Source of the DNA: Candidatus Zixiibacteriota bacterium
GTDB lineage: Bacteria; Zixibacteria; MSB-5A5; GN15; PGXB01
DNA: 33,070 nucleotides
Direction of reading: 5' to 3'
Assembly: GCA_900498245.1 (NCBI GenBank)
Contig: LS998015.1
Coordinates: 1,343,235-1,376,304 of the forward strand
Part shown: piece after piece, positions 5,331 to 17,393 of the stretch
Layout of the letters: the number at the start of each line of letters is the position of its first letter
Numbering within the stretch: the first letter of the stretch is position 1
Position numbers and translations under genes: made by a program
The notes under the pieces: model-generated
What the model was told of the DNA's origin: nothing
Seen by the model: the letters and a program-made list of their open reading frames with translations, nothing else
Databases searched by the model: none

Positions 5331-6701
5331 TTATGGGCAATTCAAGGGCAAGCCGTGCTTGTATAGAAAATTAATCAGATAAGAGACATCGAGAATATTG
5401 ACGCCGCCGGAGTGATTTACATCGGCTGATGGCAGGGGAACCGGCACCGGACCGTGCTTATATAGATAACTGATGATGAAACTGACATCGAGGATGTTGA
5501 CAATGCCGTTTCTGTTGGCATCGCCACAAATGAAAGTGCACTCGTCGGGAAGGCCATCGGTGATATTCACAGAACAGCCGCTGGAGCCGCCGGTTTCGGA
5601 ATAATAGGGGTCAAATGAGACCGAGGAGCCATCGGCCTGGAGAGCCAGAAGGGAGCCGGTGGCCACGGCACTGACTTGGTTTTCCTGCCTGTCAATAATT
5701 GGCTTCAGCGTCATATCTCCGCTCAATCTCGGAGAAATGTCGGCCAGGGAAAGTTCGGCGCTACCGTCGCAAATAACAATGCGAAGAGACGCAAGAGAAT
5801 CGGCAAGAGGCGCATCGTCGGCTCCGAAAGTGTCATAATTGGAGAAGAATATCTGACGCGGATCGCGCAGAGTGTATTCAACCGTATATGTGCCGCTCTG
5901 CGCCAAATCGCCTGTTCCCGGCTGATAGCGAATTCCCTTAATTGTATTTTCCGTAAGAACTCCGAGGGAAATATAGCCGAACTGGGGAATAGGCCGAATG
6001 GCGAAAATTGGGACGGTTGACACCGGGAGGATATCGGAAACCACAATACCGGCGACAAGAGTATTGATCAGGACAATCATATATCCGAGGTCGGAACCGA
6101 CAAAAAGACGAGGTTTGCCGTCGGGAAATTCACTCCCGGGCAATTCGGTCAGGCAGGTGGCATGGCCGTAGGTGGCTACGTTGACTGACGGGGTTAAAAC
6201 AGCCTGTGCTCCGGCCACGGGGGTGCCGTCGGAATTGAAACTAATGGGAACGGTAAATAATTTATAGTCCCTGAAGACAATCCAAGGGACCGGATCAACA
6301 CCCATTATAGATTTAGCGACGGCGGAGAAGTTGTGGCACCACCTGATACCGACCGGTTCGGAGCCCTTGATGAAATCAAAATTCAGGCGGTCTCCCATTT
6401 GTGCACCGGTGCGGTAATCGAGGGTCATAATGATGAAGCCGGATTCGGACGTGACGAAATTCCGCCAGAGGATAAAGGGGCTCGGCTCCACCCCCGGCAT
6501 GTAGGCCGATGGTGACGCGGGAAACAGATATGCGTCTGACTTTTTGACCAGCGTAATCTGGCCCAGATCGATGGCGGTAAACTGGGTGTCGGACACGGCG
6601 GCTTCTGATCGATTGTTTTCCTGAAGTTGGGGTTGTTCCGCTAGCAGAGATAGGGGAACCAGGATAATTATGGCTGTGGCGATAATTAGTTTGCCCGTCA
6701 C
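5331..6701 (-). CDS. Secreted protein with C-terminal dockerin-like repeats
   Basis: A 456-residue protein of unknown function. The N-terminus has a hydrophobic signal peptide (KLIIATAIIILVPLSLLAEQ). Residues about 40-390 form a beta-rich body without a motif I can name. The C-terminus has two EF-hand-like dockerin type I repeats: about 392-420 (CGDANRNGIVNILDVSFIIS) and 425-452 (SADVNHSGGVNILDVSYLIN), each followed by a YLYKHG-type helix end. Such repeats bind calcium and in clostridia dock to cohesins; in FCB bacteria they are common surface or sorting tails without an obvious cellulosome. The start is a GTG whose GGGAGG lies only one base upstream, so the exact start is uncertain. A promoter is visible at 6741-6768, so it is probably transcribed alone. 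Confidence 0.75.
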   Translation of the reverse strand: MTGKLIIATAIIILVPLSLLAEQPQLQENNRSEAAVSDTQFTAIDLGQITLVKKSDAYLFPASPSAYMPGVEPSPFILWRNFVTSESGFIIMTLDYRTGAQMGDRLNFDFIKGSEPVGIRWCHNFSAVAKSIMGVDPVPWIVFRDYKLFTVPISFNSDGTPVAGAQAVLTPSVNVATYGHATCLTELPGSEFPDGKPRLFVGSDLGYMIVLINTLVAGIVVSDILPVSTVPIFAIRPIPQFGYISLGVLTENTIKGIRYQPGTGDLAQSGTYTVEYTLRDPRQIFFSNYDTFGADDAPLADSLASLRIVICDGSAELSLADISPRLSGDMTLKPIIDRQENQVSAVATGSLLALQADGSSVSFDPYYSETGGSSGCSVNITDGLPDECTFICGDANRNGIVNILDVSFIISYLYKHGPVPVPLPSADVNHSGGVNILDVSYLINFLYKHGLPLNCP

Positions 6702-6904: not shown

Positions 6905-7450
6905 TTAATTCGGCCATCCGCATCGCGAAATCCATATTCCGCAATCGCACGGCGGAGTACCGCCTTTGTAAAGGTAATTAATCAGATAAGACACATCCAG
7001 GATGTTTATCACGCAATTACAGTTGGCGTCTCCGGAACAGATGCTGTATGGCCTGGTTTGTGGTCCTCCTTTATAAAGGTAATTAATAATGTACGAAACA
7101 TCGAGAATATTGATTGTGCCATTGCCGGTAGCATCGCCGACACGGCAATCGCAGACGGAAGTAAAATCCTGATAAAATCCTGCCCTATGGGAAATATTAC
7201 TCGCAGCGCTGTTGCCGATGGCGTTTTGACCGATGGTCCCAATGATAACTATTGAACCGGCCGTCGCCATATTCCCGCCGGCCGCCGTTACATCCCAAAA
7301 ATCGGTCATGACAGAAGGCGTTGCGCCGCTTGTCTCGACCAATTCGACTTCCGCATTATTGGCGGTCGATGTTAGAGAGCCGGCCACGGTGGTGCAGCAT
7401 AAAAGAAGACTAACAGCGACGGTCAATCCCAATATTTGCAGCGTTCTCAT
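6905..7450 (-). CDS. Small secreted protein with paired dockerin-like repeats
   Basis: A 181-residue exported protein of unknown function. It has a signal peptide (RTLQILGLTVAVSLLLCCTT) and a short 75-residue body containing FWDVTAAGGNMATAGSIVIIGTIGQ, a motif reminiscent of repeat proteins found in other FCB genomes. Two dockerin-like repeats follow, at about 102-130 (GDATGNGTINILDVSYIINY) and 140-165 (GDANCNCVINILDVSYLINY). Cysteines flank the repeats (CDCR before, CDCG after), hinting at disulfide-stabilised ends. The ATG has GGAG six bases upstream and lies 3 bp after the stop of the HxH protein gene, so the two are almost certainly one transcript. Confidence 0.75.
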   Translation of the reverse strand: MRTLQILGLTVAVSLLLCCTTVAGSLTSTANNAEVELVETSGATPSVMTDFWDVTAAGGNMATAGSIVIIGTIGQNAIGNSAASNISHRAGFYQDFTSVCDCRVGDATGNGTINILDVSYIINYLYKGGPQTRPYSICSGDANCNCVINILDVSYLINYLYKGGTPPCDCGIWISRCGWPN

Positions 7451-7453
7451 ACA

Positions 7454-8758
7454 CTACTCCACGAAGATATTATATGTGATCCGTCCGCCGGTTCCACCTT
7501 CTTCTCTTATTTCAATCAGGTGTTCGCCCGGACCACTAATCATGGCCGTAAGATCCAGTTCTCCGGAATTAAACTCTCCATTAAACGGTCCTCCGGCCGG
7601 AGCGCCGTCGACATAAACCCGTACATTTGAAGGAAGTGCATTAGCCAAAATGCCGGATTGATTCAGACCGGAACCATATGAATTGATAGTGCCGGTAAAG
7701 GTATGGGAATGGGAAATATCCACGGTAGTGGTATTGCCCGAGTAATCGTGAGAATGATTCGCACTTGCGGTACCGCTTGTAAAGTCGTGAGAGTGGTTCC
7801 CAAGGCTAGAGTTGGTCGTGAAATTGTGTTGATGATTGCTTTGATTTTGATCGACAGACATGCTCGCAATGCTTGTTGCGGGGCCGCCGTCCGCAGTCAA
7901 TGAATTTACCTCACTTCTATGAACAATATAAAATCCATTCTGTGCATAACCATGTATCAATAAATCATGATGATGGGCCCCATCGGTATTAGTGGTCCCC
8001 GAATGAGTGTGGCCCAAGTTAAACGATAAGGTTGTGCCGGAGTGAGTATGATTGGCACCGCTATTCGTTGAGGTTCCAGAATAGCCATGATAATGCGGCA
8101 CAGTCTTTATCCCCACGACTCCGGTCATAGAGTGGGTGTGCGGATTGATTCCGGCATGGGTGTGAGCCGCCAGAGTCCCCTGAAATTCGCTTCCATATAA
8201 ATAAAGTGTGACCTTATGTGTTCCGGCTCGCGTAATTATGGGAATAGTTGTCGTTGAATTGGGATTGATATCCATAATTTGATGATAGAGCTCCCGGCCC
8301 TGGCGAGCCACTTCGGCGGTGTCGGCGTATTTGGCATGCTCGGATGAAGCGGAAACCTGGGCCGTTCCCGAATAGGGAACCGAAACCAACTTTGTTCTCG
8401 GGGTCAACTCACTATAGCCTTGCGGCTGGAGGGCAAGGTAGAGGACTCGACCGTCGAAAATACTCATATCAATCGGTATCCTGCCGCCGAGAATTATATC
8501 AAATAATCCCTTAAATGTCTCGACAGTGTCAGTTTCTTCCCACAGTTTTCTTAATGGGTCAGTGGACGTGCTATCATCATAAATCCTGAAAATTACCTGA
8601 TAAACGGCATCGGCTACAGGCGAGCCATCAACATTGGTCATGCGGCCCTGATAATTGATTTTGTTTGGCACCCCCGCAAATGCCATGCTGGCCAAAAGCA
8701 GAAGCAATAAGGCTGCGGCGATAATCGATGATCCTTGCAGAACTCTTTTGACGCCCAT
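7454..8758 (-). CDS. Secreted histidine-rich HxH protein, tail-fibre-needle-like
   Basis: A 434-residue exported protein. A signal peptide (about 1-28) is followed by an 'NKINYQGRMTNVDGSPVADA' domain ending near residue 130 (YDDSTSTDPLRKLWEE, GLFDIILGGRIP), which is common in secreted proteins of FCB bacteria. Residues 190-355 contain ten HxH motifs (199, 207, 222, 237, 250, 262, 309, 322, 335, 350) set in Gly/Thr/Ser-rich spacers (NHTHSGTT, GHTHSGTT, NHSHDFTS, NHSHDYSG). In phage T4 long tail-fibre protein gp37, HxH motifs in an intertwined trimer coordinate iron ions along a needle; the spacing here suggests a similar metal-stabilised trimeric fibre, by analogy only. The last 60 residues look like a small beta domain. 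The ribosome binding site is GGGGGAGAG. It is first in an operon with the 181-residue dockerin protein. Confidence 0.7.
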   Translation of the reverse strand: MGVKRVLQGSSIIAAALLLLLLASMAFAGVPNKINYQGRMTNVDGSPVADAVYQVIFRIYDDSTSTDPLRKLWEETDTVETFKGLFDIILGGRIPIDMSIFDGRVLYLALQPQGYSELTPRTKLVSVPYSGTAQVSASSEHAKYADTAEVARQGRELYHQIMDINPNSTTTIPIITRAGTHKVTLYLYGSEFQGTLAAHTHAGINPHTHSMTGVVGIKTVPHYHGYSGTSTNSGANHTHSGTTLSFNLGHTHSGTTNTDGAHHHDLLIHGYAQNGFYIVHRSEVNSLTADGGPATSIASMSVDQNQSNHQHNFTTNSSLGNHSHDFTSGTASANHSHDYSGNTTTVDISHSHTFTGTINSYGSGLNQSGILANALPSNVRVYVDGAPAGGPFNGEFNSGELDLTAMISGPGEHLIEIREEGGTGGRITYNIFVE

Positions 8759-9065
8759 AACATCTCTCCCCCGGTGTCACCGGTCAGTTAGGTGGTTAAA
8801 AGTTTAAGAGTTGAAATTGATGAAAATTAAGCAAGAATAAATGGTTTACCCCATGTTGCCGTCAGTTTTAGCAATAATATCGATTAATTTCCCCGGGTTG
8901 TGCTCAAACCCTGCTAATAATAAGTATGTTGAGATCAATTGTCAATATTTAAGGTGGATAGGGCGATCCTGCGGCTGGCGAGAGATCCATTATCCACTTG
9001 CAAATGGGGGGGAAAAGTATTAGAATTCAGGTAATAAACTTACAAAAATATACCTGGAGGAATAC
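8759..9065. other. Divergent intergenic region (307 bp)
   Basis: This gap separates the minus-strand HxH gene from yebC. I see no gene in it. It is AT-rich with homopurine stretches, and only the yebC promoter candidate at 8998-9026 and the two ribosome binding sites stand out. Confidence 0.6.
8998..9026 (+). promoter_or_regulatory. Putative promoter for yebC-ruvCAB
   Basis: TTGCAA (8998-9003) and TAGAAT (9021-9026) are separated by 17 bp. Transcription would begin near 9033, about 30 bases before the yebC ATG, which is preceded by a good GGAGG. Confidence 0.45.
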
Positions 9066-14680: not shown

Positions 14681-14697
14681 CTGACAGAATCTGTCAG
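14681..14697 (-). terminator. Weak hairpin at the end of the minus-strand EamA gene
   Basis: The perfect inverted repeat CTGACAG / CTGTCAG with a 3-base loop overlaps the stop codon of the EamA gene. Downstream on the minus strand comes TAGGATTATTTT, a poor T-tract. It is a possible terminator. Confidence 0.4.
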
Positions 14698-15593
14698 GAT
14701 AGCATATCGGTTGATGACGGTGCGCTGCCGATTCCCTGATGCAAGACTATGAAAATACCGAAAAGAATCAAAACCCCTCCCGTTACAGTCCACCAGCCGG
14801 GAATCTGATGGAAGAAAAAGATCGCCAGAATGGTGGCGCCGATCGGCTCGCCCAGAATGGTGGTGGCGACTTTATGGGCGGAGACATATTTCAGGAGCCA
14901 ATTGTACAGGGAATGCCCCAATACGGTCGGAATTATGGCGAGTAAAAGAAAAAATATCCAGGATTTGGCCGGATAGGAAGTCAGATTTTCACCGTACAAA
15001 AGAGATATGGCAAGAAGGGTGGCGGCGGCGGTCGAATAAACCGGCAGGATATACCCGAGATTATCGATATGGGCCCGGAGATGCCGCCCGATGAAGAGAT
15101 ATATTCCGGCGCAAATCGCCCCGACCAGCGCCATCAGGTCGCCGAGAACATACTGACGCCCGAGGTTAAAATCACCGCGCGAGATCAAGATCATACCGGC
15201 CAGAGCCACGACCATGCCCAAGACGGAGCGGGAGGCGATCCGGTCCTTGAGAAGAAGCGCTTCCATCATCAGGACAAAAATCGGCTGAGTGGCGACTAGA
15301 ATGGTGGAGTTGGAAATAGTGGTATAGAAAAGCGATGTAACCCAGAAGGCAAAATGAAGCCCCAGAACGATGCCGGAAGCAAAAAGAAGATATTTCTGGC
15401 GTGTTGTCAGGATAGCCATCGATTTGCGGGCCCGAGGAAGGGCCGGAATAGCCAAAAGAGCGGAGGCAATGGCCATCCGGTAAAAGGCGACCGGAAGCGG
15501 CGGGGCATCGGCCAGTTTAATCAATATCGACGCCCAGGAAACCGCGAAAGTCGCCACAAATAGAGAAAGGTATAATCTTGCTTGGCCGGCCAT
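14694..15593 (-). CDS. EamA/DMT family transporter
   Basis: A 299-residue inner-membrane protein of the drug/metabolite transporter superfamily, with ten predicted hydrophobic segments in two EamA repeats (1-140 and 150-290). Recognisable features are the start LYLSLFVATFAVSWASILIKLAD, PLPVAFYRMAIASALL, the first-repeat end TTISNSTILVATQPIFVLMMEALLLKDRI with LGMVVALAGMILISRGDF, and the second-repeat ending VATTILGEPIGATILAIFFFHQIPGWWTVTGGVLILFGIFIV. Substrate cannot be predicted; relatives export amino acids or metabolites. It is divergent from two more EamA genes but differs from them clearly, so it is not a recent duplicate. Confidence 0.88.
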   Translation of the reverse strand: MAGQARLYLSLFVATFAVSWASILIKLADAPPLPVAFYRMAIASALLAIPALPRARKSMAILTTRQKYLLFASGIVLGLHFAFWVTSLFYTTISNSTILVATQPIFVLMMEALLLKDRIASRSVLGMVVALAGMILISRGDFNLGRQYVLGDLMALVGAICAGIYLFIGRHLRAHIDNLGYILPVYSTAAATLLAISLLYGENLTSYPAKSWIFFLLLAIIPTVLGHSLYNWLLKYVSAHKVATTILGEPIGATILAIFFFHQIPGWWTVTGGVLILFGIFIVLHQGIGSAPSSTDMLS

Positions 15594-15639
15594 AATTTTT
15601 CTGTATATTGTCCGTTCAATATAGCCAAATAGATAAATT

Positions 15640-16521
15640 ATGTCGATATTTTTGCTGATTGCTGTTGTCTTCTGGGGGTTCTCTTATATTGCCATAAAAG
15701 TGTCGCTTCAATATCTATCTCCGGTGGAATTGATCGCGGCCCGGTTCGTTCTCGGCGGGGTCACTCTCGGGGCAATTATCTGGTGGAAGGGCCTTTCGTT
15801 TTCCTTAAAGGGCCAATTCAAAACCCTGCTTCTCTCCGGCGGGATCGTTTTTGTCCATTTCTGGATCATGGCGACGGGGATGGAAACCACTACCGCCACC
15901 AATACCGCCTGGATATTGACGACCGCTCCGATATTTATCGCCCTTCTGTCGTTTTTCCTGTTGAAAGAGCCGTTCGGGAAAATTCAGATTATAAGTATCA
16001 TACTGGCGACTTTCGGAGTGGTGCTTCTGGTCTCCAATGGCAAACTGGGGTCGCTCGATTGGATAAAATCGACCGGCGACTGGATTGTTCTCGGTAGCTG
16101 TGTCACCTGGGCGATTTATACCATTGTCAGCCGAAAGACCGCCAAGCGACTCGATCCGCTGGTGGCGACCTTCTGGACTATCGCGCTGGCGGCGGTCGTG
16201 ATTGTACCATACAGTCTGACAGTCAGCGGTTATGCCGTATATGCGAAGATGGCGACGGACGGGATTATCGCGGTATTATTTCTGGGCATCGGATGCCTGG
16301 CGATATCATTCTGGTTCTGGTCGGAAGGATTGGCCCGCAAACCGGCCGGGGAAGTCGGCATTTATCTTTACCTGGAGCCGTTATTCGCGATGTTCGGAGG
16401 ATACCTGTTCCTGAAAGAAGGAATCACGTTCTGGCTCATTCTGGGAGCGCTGTTTATTGTGGCGGGGGTGTATCTTTCGGAGCGGCTGGGACGTATCCGG
16501 CTCGATGAGCATGATGTATGA
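15640..16521 (+). CDS. EamA/DMT family transporter, first of a tandem pair
   Basis: A 293-residue membrane transporter with two EamA repeats and about ten TM helices (MSIFLLIAVVFWGFSYIAIK, then YLSPVELIAARFVLGG, TTATNTAWILTTAPIFIALLSFFLLKE and STGDWIVLGSCVTWAIYTIVSRK). Its C-terminal half carries the GEVGIYLYLEPLFAMFGGYLFLKE signature. It overlaps the next gene by four bases (ATGA) and is closely similar to it (both have STGDWI, SCVTW/SAVTW, LEPL), so the pair arose by tandem duplication and may work as a heterodimer. Substrate unknown. Confidence 0.9.
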   Translation: MSIFLLIAVVFWGFSYIAIKVSLQYLSPVELIAARFVLGGVTLGAIIWWKGLSFSLKGQFKTLLLSGGIVFVHFWIMATGMETTTATNTAWILTTAPIFIALLSFFLLKEPFGKIQIISIILATFGVVLLVSNGKLGSLDWIKSTGDWIVLGSCVTWAIYTIVSRKTAKRLDPLVATFWTIALAAVVIVPYSLTVSGYAVYAKMATDGIIAVLFLGIGCLAISFWFWSEGLARKPAGEVGIYLYLEPLFAMFGGYLFLKEGITFWLILGALFIVAGVYLSERLGRIRLDEHDV

Positions 16522-17393
16522 TTAATTTGATGCTGCTTTTGACGGTTGCCGCCTGGGGGATGTCGTTTATTGCCACCAAGGCGGCTCTGGGATATCTGAC
16601 GCCGGTGGAGATTGTCGCGGTCAGGCTCCTTCTCGGAACCCCGGTTCTCTATCTGGTGATATTAATCAAAAAGATCGATTTGCAGTGGCGCCGCTCCGAT
16701 ATGATTTTACTTATGGCGGCCTCGGCTGTAATGACGGCTCATTTCCTGATTCAGGCGGTCGGGCTGGAGTACACCTCGGCGACCAACACCGCCTGGCTGG
16801 TGGCGACCATTCCGATCTTTATTGCCATTTTCTCCCGGATATTTTTAAAAGAGAAAATGACAATTCTGAAATTCGCCGGTATCTCTCTGGCGACACTTGG
16901 CGTTCTCCTCTTAGTTTCAAAAGGGGAAATTTACAGTCTGGGTTGGCTCAAGTCGACCGGCGACTGGATCATACTTTCGAGCGCCGTCACCTGGACGATT
17001 TATACTGTATTGACGCGCGACCTGTCGCGGAGGTATCATCCGCTTTCGGTAACTCTCTTGATATTGATTTTGCCCGCCGTAATTCTGAACGGCTATGCGG
17101 CCAGTACAACGCCAATATCAAAATTATGGAACCTTCCGGTGAGTATCATGCTGGCGATGGCTTTTCTGGGGGTTATCTGCCTCGGTTTGGCGCAGTGGGT
17201 ATGGATGGAAGGGTTGGCGCGCAAAGGGGCGACCGAGGTCGGGGTATTTATTTATCTTGAGCCCCTGGTAACAACCGCGGCGGCGATTCCGATTCTGGAT
17301 GAGAAGTTGACATTATTCACGGTAATAGGGGCGATATTGATTATCGGAGGGGTTTATATGGTGCAGAAGAAGTTTGCGGGGCGTACCGGATGA
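16518..17393 (+). CDS. EamA/DMT family transporter, second of a tandem pair
   Basis: A 291-residue paralogue of the preceding gene, translationally coupled through an ATGA overlap. It has the family start MLLLTVAAWGMSFIATKAAL, TSATNTAWLVATIPIFIAIFSRIFLKEK, LGVLLLVSKGEIYSLGWLKSTGDWIILSS, and a final EVGVFIYLEPLVTTAAAIPILDEKLTLF repeat. The hairpin repeats beginning 8 bp after its stop could contribute to transcription termination or mRNA stability. Substrate unknown. Confidence 0.9.
   Translation: MINLMLLLTVAAWGMSFIATKAALGYLTPVEIVAVRLLLGTPVLYLVILIKKIDLQWRRSDMILLMAASAVMTAHFLIQAVGLEYTSATNTAWLVATIPIFIAIFSRIFLKEKMTILKFAGISLATLGVLLLVSKGEIYSLGWLKSTGDWIILSSAVTWTIYTVLTRDLSRRYHPLSVTLLILILPAVILNGYAASTTPISKLWNLPVSIMLAMAFLGVICLGLAQWVWMEGLARKGATEVGVFIYLEPLVTTAAAIPILDEKLTLFTVIGAILIIGGVYMVQKKFAGRTG

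Follow-up and report, generated by a model that had tools for sequence, protein, structure and literature searches.

A putative metal-threaded surface adhesin with a MAT-like base domain in a Zixiibacteriota bacterium

Results and discussion

The window (the whole 33,070-nt stretch of Candidatus Zixiibacteriota DNA that was analysed) contains an ORF on the minus strand (8758-7454, ATG start) which codes for a protein of 434 aa with ten HxH motifs. Judged from its sequence, this protein is likely to be a secreted, homotrimeric, MAT-like chimeric adhesin, carrying a metal needle of the gp37 kind and probably displayed with the help of a dockerin-tailed partner. The layout of the tip is like that of gp37 and the base is that of a bacterial surface fibre; together, these make it probable that the protein (hereafter the HxH fibre) is the bacterium's own metal-stapled adhesive fibre.

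The fibre gene and its surroundings

An earlier note on this DNA had described a signal-peptide-bearing ORF in which an NYQGRM domain is combined with HxH motifs, ten in number, and both the coordinates and the motifs proved to be exactly as given. The signal peptide (residues 1-28, 8675..8758, minus strand) is a classical one, with KR followed by AAALLLLLLASM and then AFA/G, and the homologues described below also have a signal-peptide-like start. It is followed by the N-terminal NYQG beta-domain, the MAT-like fibre base (residues 30-132, 8363..8671, minus strand), with NYQGRM at residues 35-40. Residues 133-153 (8300..8362, minus strand) form a linker that varies in the homologue alignment and is possibly helical; a helix at 140-162 is present only in a low-confidence AlphaFold2 (AF2) model. 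Upstream of the gene lies a promoter-like site (TTGACA-17-TATTAT, 11/12; 8917..8945, minus strand), found by consensus scan only.

The neighbours of the fibre gene, named by eye, are the chromosomal genes for YebC, RuvC, RuvA, RuvB, MotA and MotB. The statement in the note that no phage genes are nearby held for the whole window, the flanks consisting of chromosomal housekeeping genes (also named by eye). Elsewhere in the window, three adjacent EamA/DMT-like transporter ORFs (named by eye) are found at 14694-17393, one of them on the opposite strand.

Spacing and invariance of the HxH motifs

The ten HxH motifs start at residues 199, 207, 222, 237, 250 and 262 and, after a gap, at 309, 322, 335 and 350, and span residues 199-352. 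Their number is far above chance for the protein as a whole: 20,000 shuffles of the complete sequence gave a mean of 1.6 and a maximum of 7. When only the His-rich stretch 195-356 was shuffled (20,000 times), the mean was 3.1 and the maximum 11, so that for this region the number of motifs does not settle the matter by itself. What does is their regular spacing and the invariance of their histidines in homologues.

The spacing in the query is 8,15,15,13,12 in an arm of six HxH motifs, 47 across a loop of 44 residues, and 13,13,15 in an arm of four. We designate these parts the outgoing arm (residues 199-264, 7967..8164, minus strand), the head loop (residues 265-308, 7835..7966, minus strand) and the returning arm (residues 309-356, 7691..7834, minus strand). 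Read outward from the loop, the arms mirror each other, with 12,13,15,15,8 in the outgoing arm against 13,13,15 in the returning arm.

Three full-length homologues were found, all in the same phylum: L004 (= L033, genome G002), L005 (= L040, genome G011) and L006 (= L034, genome G128). They are 44-51% identical to the query. The note had named freely varying histidines in homologues as evidence against a metal needle; instead, all 20 HxH histidines are invariant in the four proteins, compared with 22 of the 94 other needle columns (Fisher p = 5e-11). At the DNA level 50 of 120 pairwise comparisons of the His codons (42%) differ synonymously, and therefore the amino acid itself is under selection. 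Charged residues occupy only 5 of the 114 needle-strand positions.

Two of the homologues, L005 and L006, contain twelve HxH motifs, with an extra 13-residue HxH unit on each arm, giving spacings of 8,15,15,13,13,12 in the outgoing arm, 43-46 across the loop and 13,13,13,15 in the returning arm. In a chain folded as a hairpin, a longer outgoing arm demands a longer returning arm, whereas a flexible repeat is under no such constraint. With only four members known, the paired 13-residue insertion may represent a single evolutionary event.

A further regularity is found within the motifs. Position +4, two residues after the second histidine, is hydrophobic in 73% of the motifs of the HxH fibres. 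This HxHx-hydrophobic alternation is expected if both histidines point to the inner side of a strand together with the hydrophobic residue.

Comparison with T4 gp37 and other HxH-iron tips

Each gp37 chain of the T4 needle reportedly goes outward and then back. As calibration we used 50 distinct tips of T4 gp37-type phages from IMG/VR. The great majority (47/50) showed spacings of 32,14 before a loop of 35-56 and 14,9,9 after it, the loop being the length-variable part. The three variants altered both arms together (42 before and 9,9,9 after the loop, twice; 42,14 before and 14,9,9,9 after it, once), with length changes of -4/-5 and +10/+9 residues. Position +4 was hydrophobic in 77% of the motifs of the phage tips; positions +3 and +5 were so in at most 14%, in the phage tips as well as in the HxH fibres.

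The needle structure of the T4 gp37 tip is known (PDB 2XGF; described in PMC10175313 and PMC6116203), and in gp37, as in R-pyocin fibres and in P2 gpV, iron is bound octahedrally by HxH motifs that three chains contribute (PMC6116203). With gp37 and the related phage tips the HxH fibre has in common the HxH motifs in an outgoing and a returning arm that enclose a variable loop, the HxHx-hydrophobic pattern, spacers rich in G, S and T, and arms that change length together. However, the T4 tip has seven HxH motifs and the HxH fibres have ten or twelve; the spacing is mostly 12-15 in the HxH fibres and 9-14 in the gp37-type tips; and the HxH fibre has another collar and C-terminal domain, to which a signal peptide and a bacterial base domain are added. 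Alignment of the two tips with hhalign was not significant (probability 11.5%). Of the resemblance to the gp37 needle proposed in the note, the layout therefore stands, in its mirrored spacing, paired arm gains and HxHx-hydrophobic pattern, but without detectable sequence homology. The evidence supports a tip that would work like the gp37 needle; the likeness is one of layout, and we do not claim kinship.

For R-pyocin fibres and the P2 and phi92 spikes an octahedral iron site has been described that lies on the threefold axis and is built from six histidines (PMC6116203), and such a site is proposed here for the HxH fibre. The R-pyocin fibre is described with one HxH iron site, and these fibres and spikes are parts of contractile particles (PMC6116203). 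Trimeric autotransporter adhesins end in a YadA-type beta-barrel anchor; Pfam gave no match to this anchor, and the C-terminus of the HxH fibre is a conserved beta domain.

Conservation across the tip and structure models

Among the four HxH fibres the most conserved region is the N-terminal half of the proposed collar (residues 154-198, RELYHQIMDINPN...VTLYLYGSEFQG; 8165..8299, minus strand), with a mean pairwise identity of 62%. The C-terminal beta cap, which would form the second half of the collar (residues 357-434 plus stop, 7454..7690, minus strand), has 59%. Within the tip, the head loop, the proposed receptor-binding part, is the least conserved, with 34% identity against 53-62% elsewhere and with only 6 of 40 columns invariant.

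The AF2 monomer model of the whole HxH fibre, built from three sequences, was too poor to show the direction of side chains (pLDDT 34.5). Modelled alone, the C-terminal cap gave a moderately good fold that was all beta (pLDDT 75). Foldseek found no match to this model at E<0.001 in the PDB or BFVD (best E 0.41 and 0.22, respectively). A phage baseplate protein headed the PDB matches of the cap; not being significant, it was not counted as evidence. Nothing meaningful was found in Pfam with the HxH fibre, or among PDB sequences with the whole protein, the tip profile or the N-terminal domain, and the proposed collar (154-198 plus 357-434) was likewise without a match in Pfam or PDB sequences.

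Distribution of the HxH tip

In 132 genomes of the phylum, a profile of residues 136-434 matched only the four HxH fibres. When 84,980 species were scanned by pattern, a method that misses distant relatives, only two of these four loci were matched. One further match to the tip profile came from G282, a genome outside the phylum in a set of 386 (E=6.7e-4); the ORF encodes a papain-like protease and the match was taken as chance.

In G128, the HxH gene is preceded by two more long fibre-type ORFs, of which the nearer begins with a related domain. Long fibre-type and S74 genes surround the HxH fibre in this genome (L034:7-4141 and G128:C208, ~90-120 kb), in an apparent adhesin island.

A base domain probably related to that of MAT fibres

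Residues 18-91 of the HxH fibre matched the NCBIfam family NF053851 (Bdello_MAT_N) with E=1.4e-8 and 34.7 bits, which is below the curated cut-off of 60. The same family matched in 105 of the 132 genomes of the phylum and in none of 14 controls. A search for relatives of the N-terminal domain, suggested in the note, retrieved a related domain from 122 of 146 genomes, mostly of the same phylum and often in several copies. One paralogue lies in the genome of the HxH fibre itself (L002 = L146) and combines the NYQG domain with a stretch of repeats and an S74 chaperone; the S74 trimerisation chaperone also ends 3 of the 8 other NYQG proteins scanned.

In PMC10769870, the MAT proteins of Bdellovibrio bacteriovorus are described as having a conserved beta-domain of ~130 aa after the signal peptide, and as forming long trimeric fibres on the surface of the predator, with tips that are swapped and of which one binds glycans. 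Sequence comparison indicates that the N-terminal domain of the HxH fibre is probably related to this MAT base domain. Both kinds of protein are exported and begin with a signal peptide, followed by the probably related beta-domain; MAT tips are exchanged between members, and the relatives of the HxH-fibre base domain include S74-tipped proteins. The HxH fibre differs in its very short stalk and in its NF053851 score under the curated cut-off. The MAT tips described are an S74 beta-helix, a beta-sandwich, a TNF-like domain and a C-type lectin, and no HxH needle is among them (PMC10769870).

The dockerin-tailed partner gene

Three bases downstream of the fibre gene lies a gene for a protein of 181 aa (6905..7450, minus strand) with a signal peptide, a 'GTIGQ...GFYQ' domain and a dockerin tail. 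The tail had been called dockerin-like in the note, and Pfam identified it as Dockerin_1 (E = 2.9e-10). All four HxH fibres are immediately followed by this partner or a homologue of it, and so is the S74 paralogue L146 of the query's own genome. When 20 further NYQG loci were searched with a profile of the non-dockerin domain, five strong and two weak matches were obtained, all seven on the strand of the fibre and downstream of it. This family of small exported proteins comprises 6905-7450 in the window, L033:2895-3536, L034:6310-6969, L040:7329-7955 and L146:1456-1947, with further members at L154, L156, L157, L162 and L163. It is recognised by 'WQVIxSGG...NGTIGQ...GFWQ' plus the dockerin tail, and adjoins MAT-like fibres of different tip types. 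This recurrence directly downstream of MAT-like fibres suggests that the partner serves as a fibre anchor or in fibre assembly.

The two weak matches (L165:2797-3349 and L161:1172-3098, in fibre-strand coordinates) have, in place of the dockerin, a C-terminus of the QNYPNPFN/QNFPNPFN type, which we take to be a type IX sorting signal. In the genome to which the window belongs (G000, a single contig of 3.5 Mb), 72 matches to dockerin domains and six to cohesins exceed the curated cut-off, which makes a dockerin-cohesin tether of the fibre possible. About 200 bases beyond the partner, on the same strand, an exported-looking protein with a C-terminal dockerin (E=1.8e-9) is encoded at 5331-6701 (minus strand).

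Proposed model and alternative explanations

From these sequences we infer the trimer, the identity of the metal, the hairpin geometry, the adhesive function and the role of the partner. The MAT-like beta-domain would be the base of the fibre. Each chain would run outward (residues 199-264), turn in the head loop (265-308) and come back (309-356) to be received by a collar of residues 154-198 and 357-434. Each HxH motif would meet its counterparts from the other two chains on the threefold axis, where their six histidines would hold a metal octahedrally, and the metals, most likely iron(II), would fix the register of the needle; we predict about ten per trimer in the query and twelve in two of the homologues. 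The exposed, fast-changing head loop would bind a surface ligand, which may be a glycan, another cell, a mineral or a particle, and the dockerin-tailed product of the next gene probably aids in displaying or tethering the fibre at the cell surface.

A protein so rich in histidine might instead be a flexible, unstructured scavenger or store of metals that forms no fibre: many proteins without kinship to one another bind metals through HxH motifs, and the AF2 monomer contains no confident structure in the HxH region. We consider this unlikely, as a flexible chelator would not be expected to show exact spacing, paired gains in two arms and the HxHx-hydrophobic alternation. Moreover, other His-rich stretches in the phylum, found with the same DNA pattern and inspected by eye, are mostly mixed runs of codons for histidine and charged residues and are not spaced by G, S and T; the scarcity of charged residues on the needle strands points the same way. 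No more probable is a trimeric, metal-bound needle that acts as a structural or scaffold element of the cell surface and not as an adhesin. There is no known ligand, and the dockerin and cohesin-like proteins of the genome could make the fibre part of a scaffold, but within the tip it is the head loop that changes fastest, as in receptor-binding tips, and the relatives of the base domain that have a known function are adhesins (PMC10769870).

A captured phage gene, that is, a tail fibre of a prophage, tailocin or gene transfer agent with an incidental signal peptide, is slightly less probable still. Besides the needle-like layout, a weak match to a PHROG tail-fibre family (E=0.003) and the equally tentative matches that tblastn gave with tail genes of cyanophages (best E=0.01) speak for it. 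Against it, no phage genes were present in the window or around the relatives; neither the tip profile nor the pattern scan found a relative of the tip in IMG/VR contigs; and the C-terminal cap had no relative in IMG/VR or INPHARED and no match in PHROGs. In addition, a large family of exported bacterial proteins shares the N-terminal domain, and export by a signal peptide is not used by phage fibres. A direct phage origin of the HxH fibre was considered and is not supported; the tip alone may have come from a phage.

Significance

Metal-threaded HxH needles have been described in the open-access literature from phage tails and phage-derived particles, and in the same literature we found no report of such a needle in a bacterium's own exported surface fibre. 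As far as sequence can show, the protein is supported as a chimera of a MAT-like fibre and a metal-needle tip, which would be a new combination of known kinds. A wider proposal, for and against which we see equal weight, is that of a non-phage adhesin tip: a threefold HxH needle of ten or twelve metals, independent of T4-type phages or the product of a long-lost exchange, lengthened by paired 13-residue units and displayed via a dedicated dockerin partner common to other fibre types.

If the adhesin reading is correct, the HxH needle would be a general means of building a stiff adhesive tip, and phage receptor binding would be linked to bacterial adhesion. Others could then be found by a simple sequence rule, namely that HxH units on the two sides of a loop are gained in pairs. 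The operon of fibre and dockerin partner also hints at how cells may keep MAT-like fibres on their surface.
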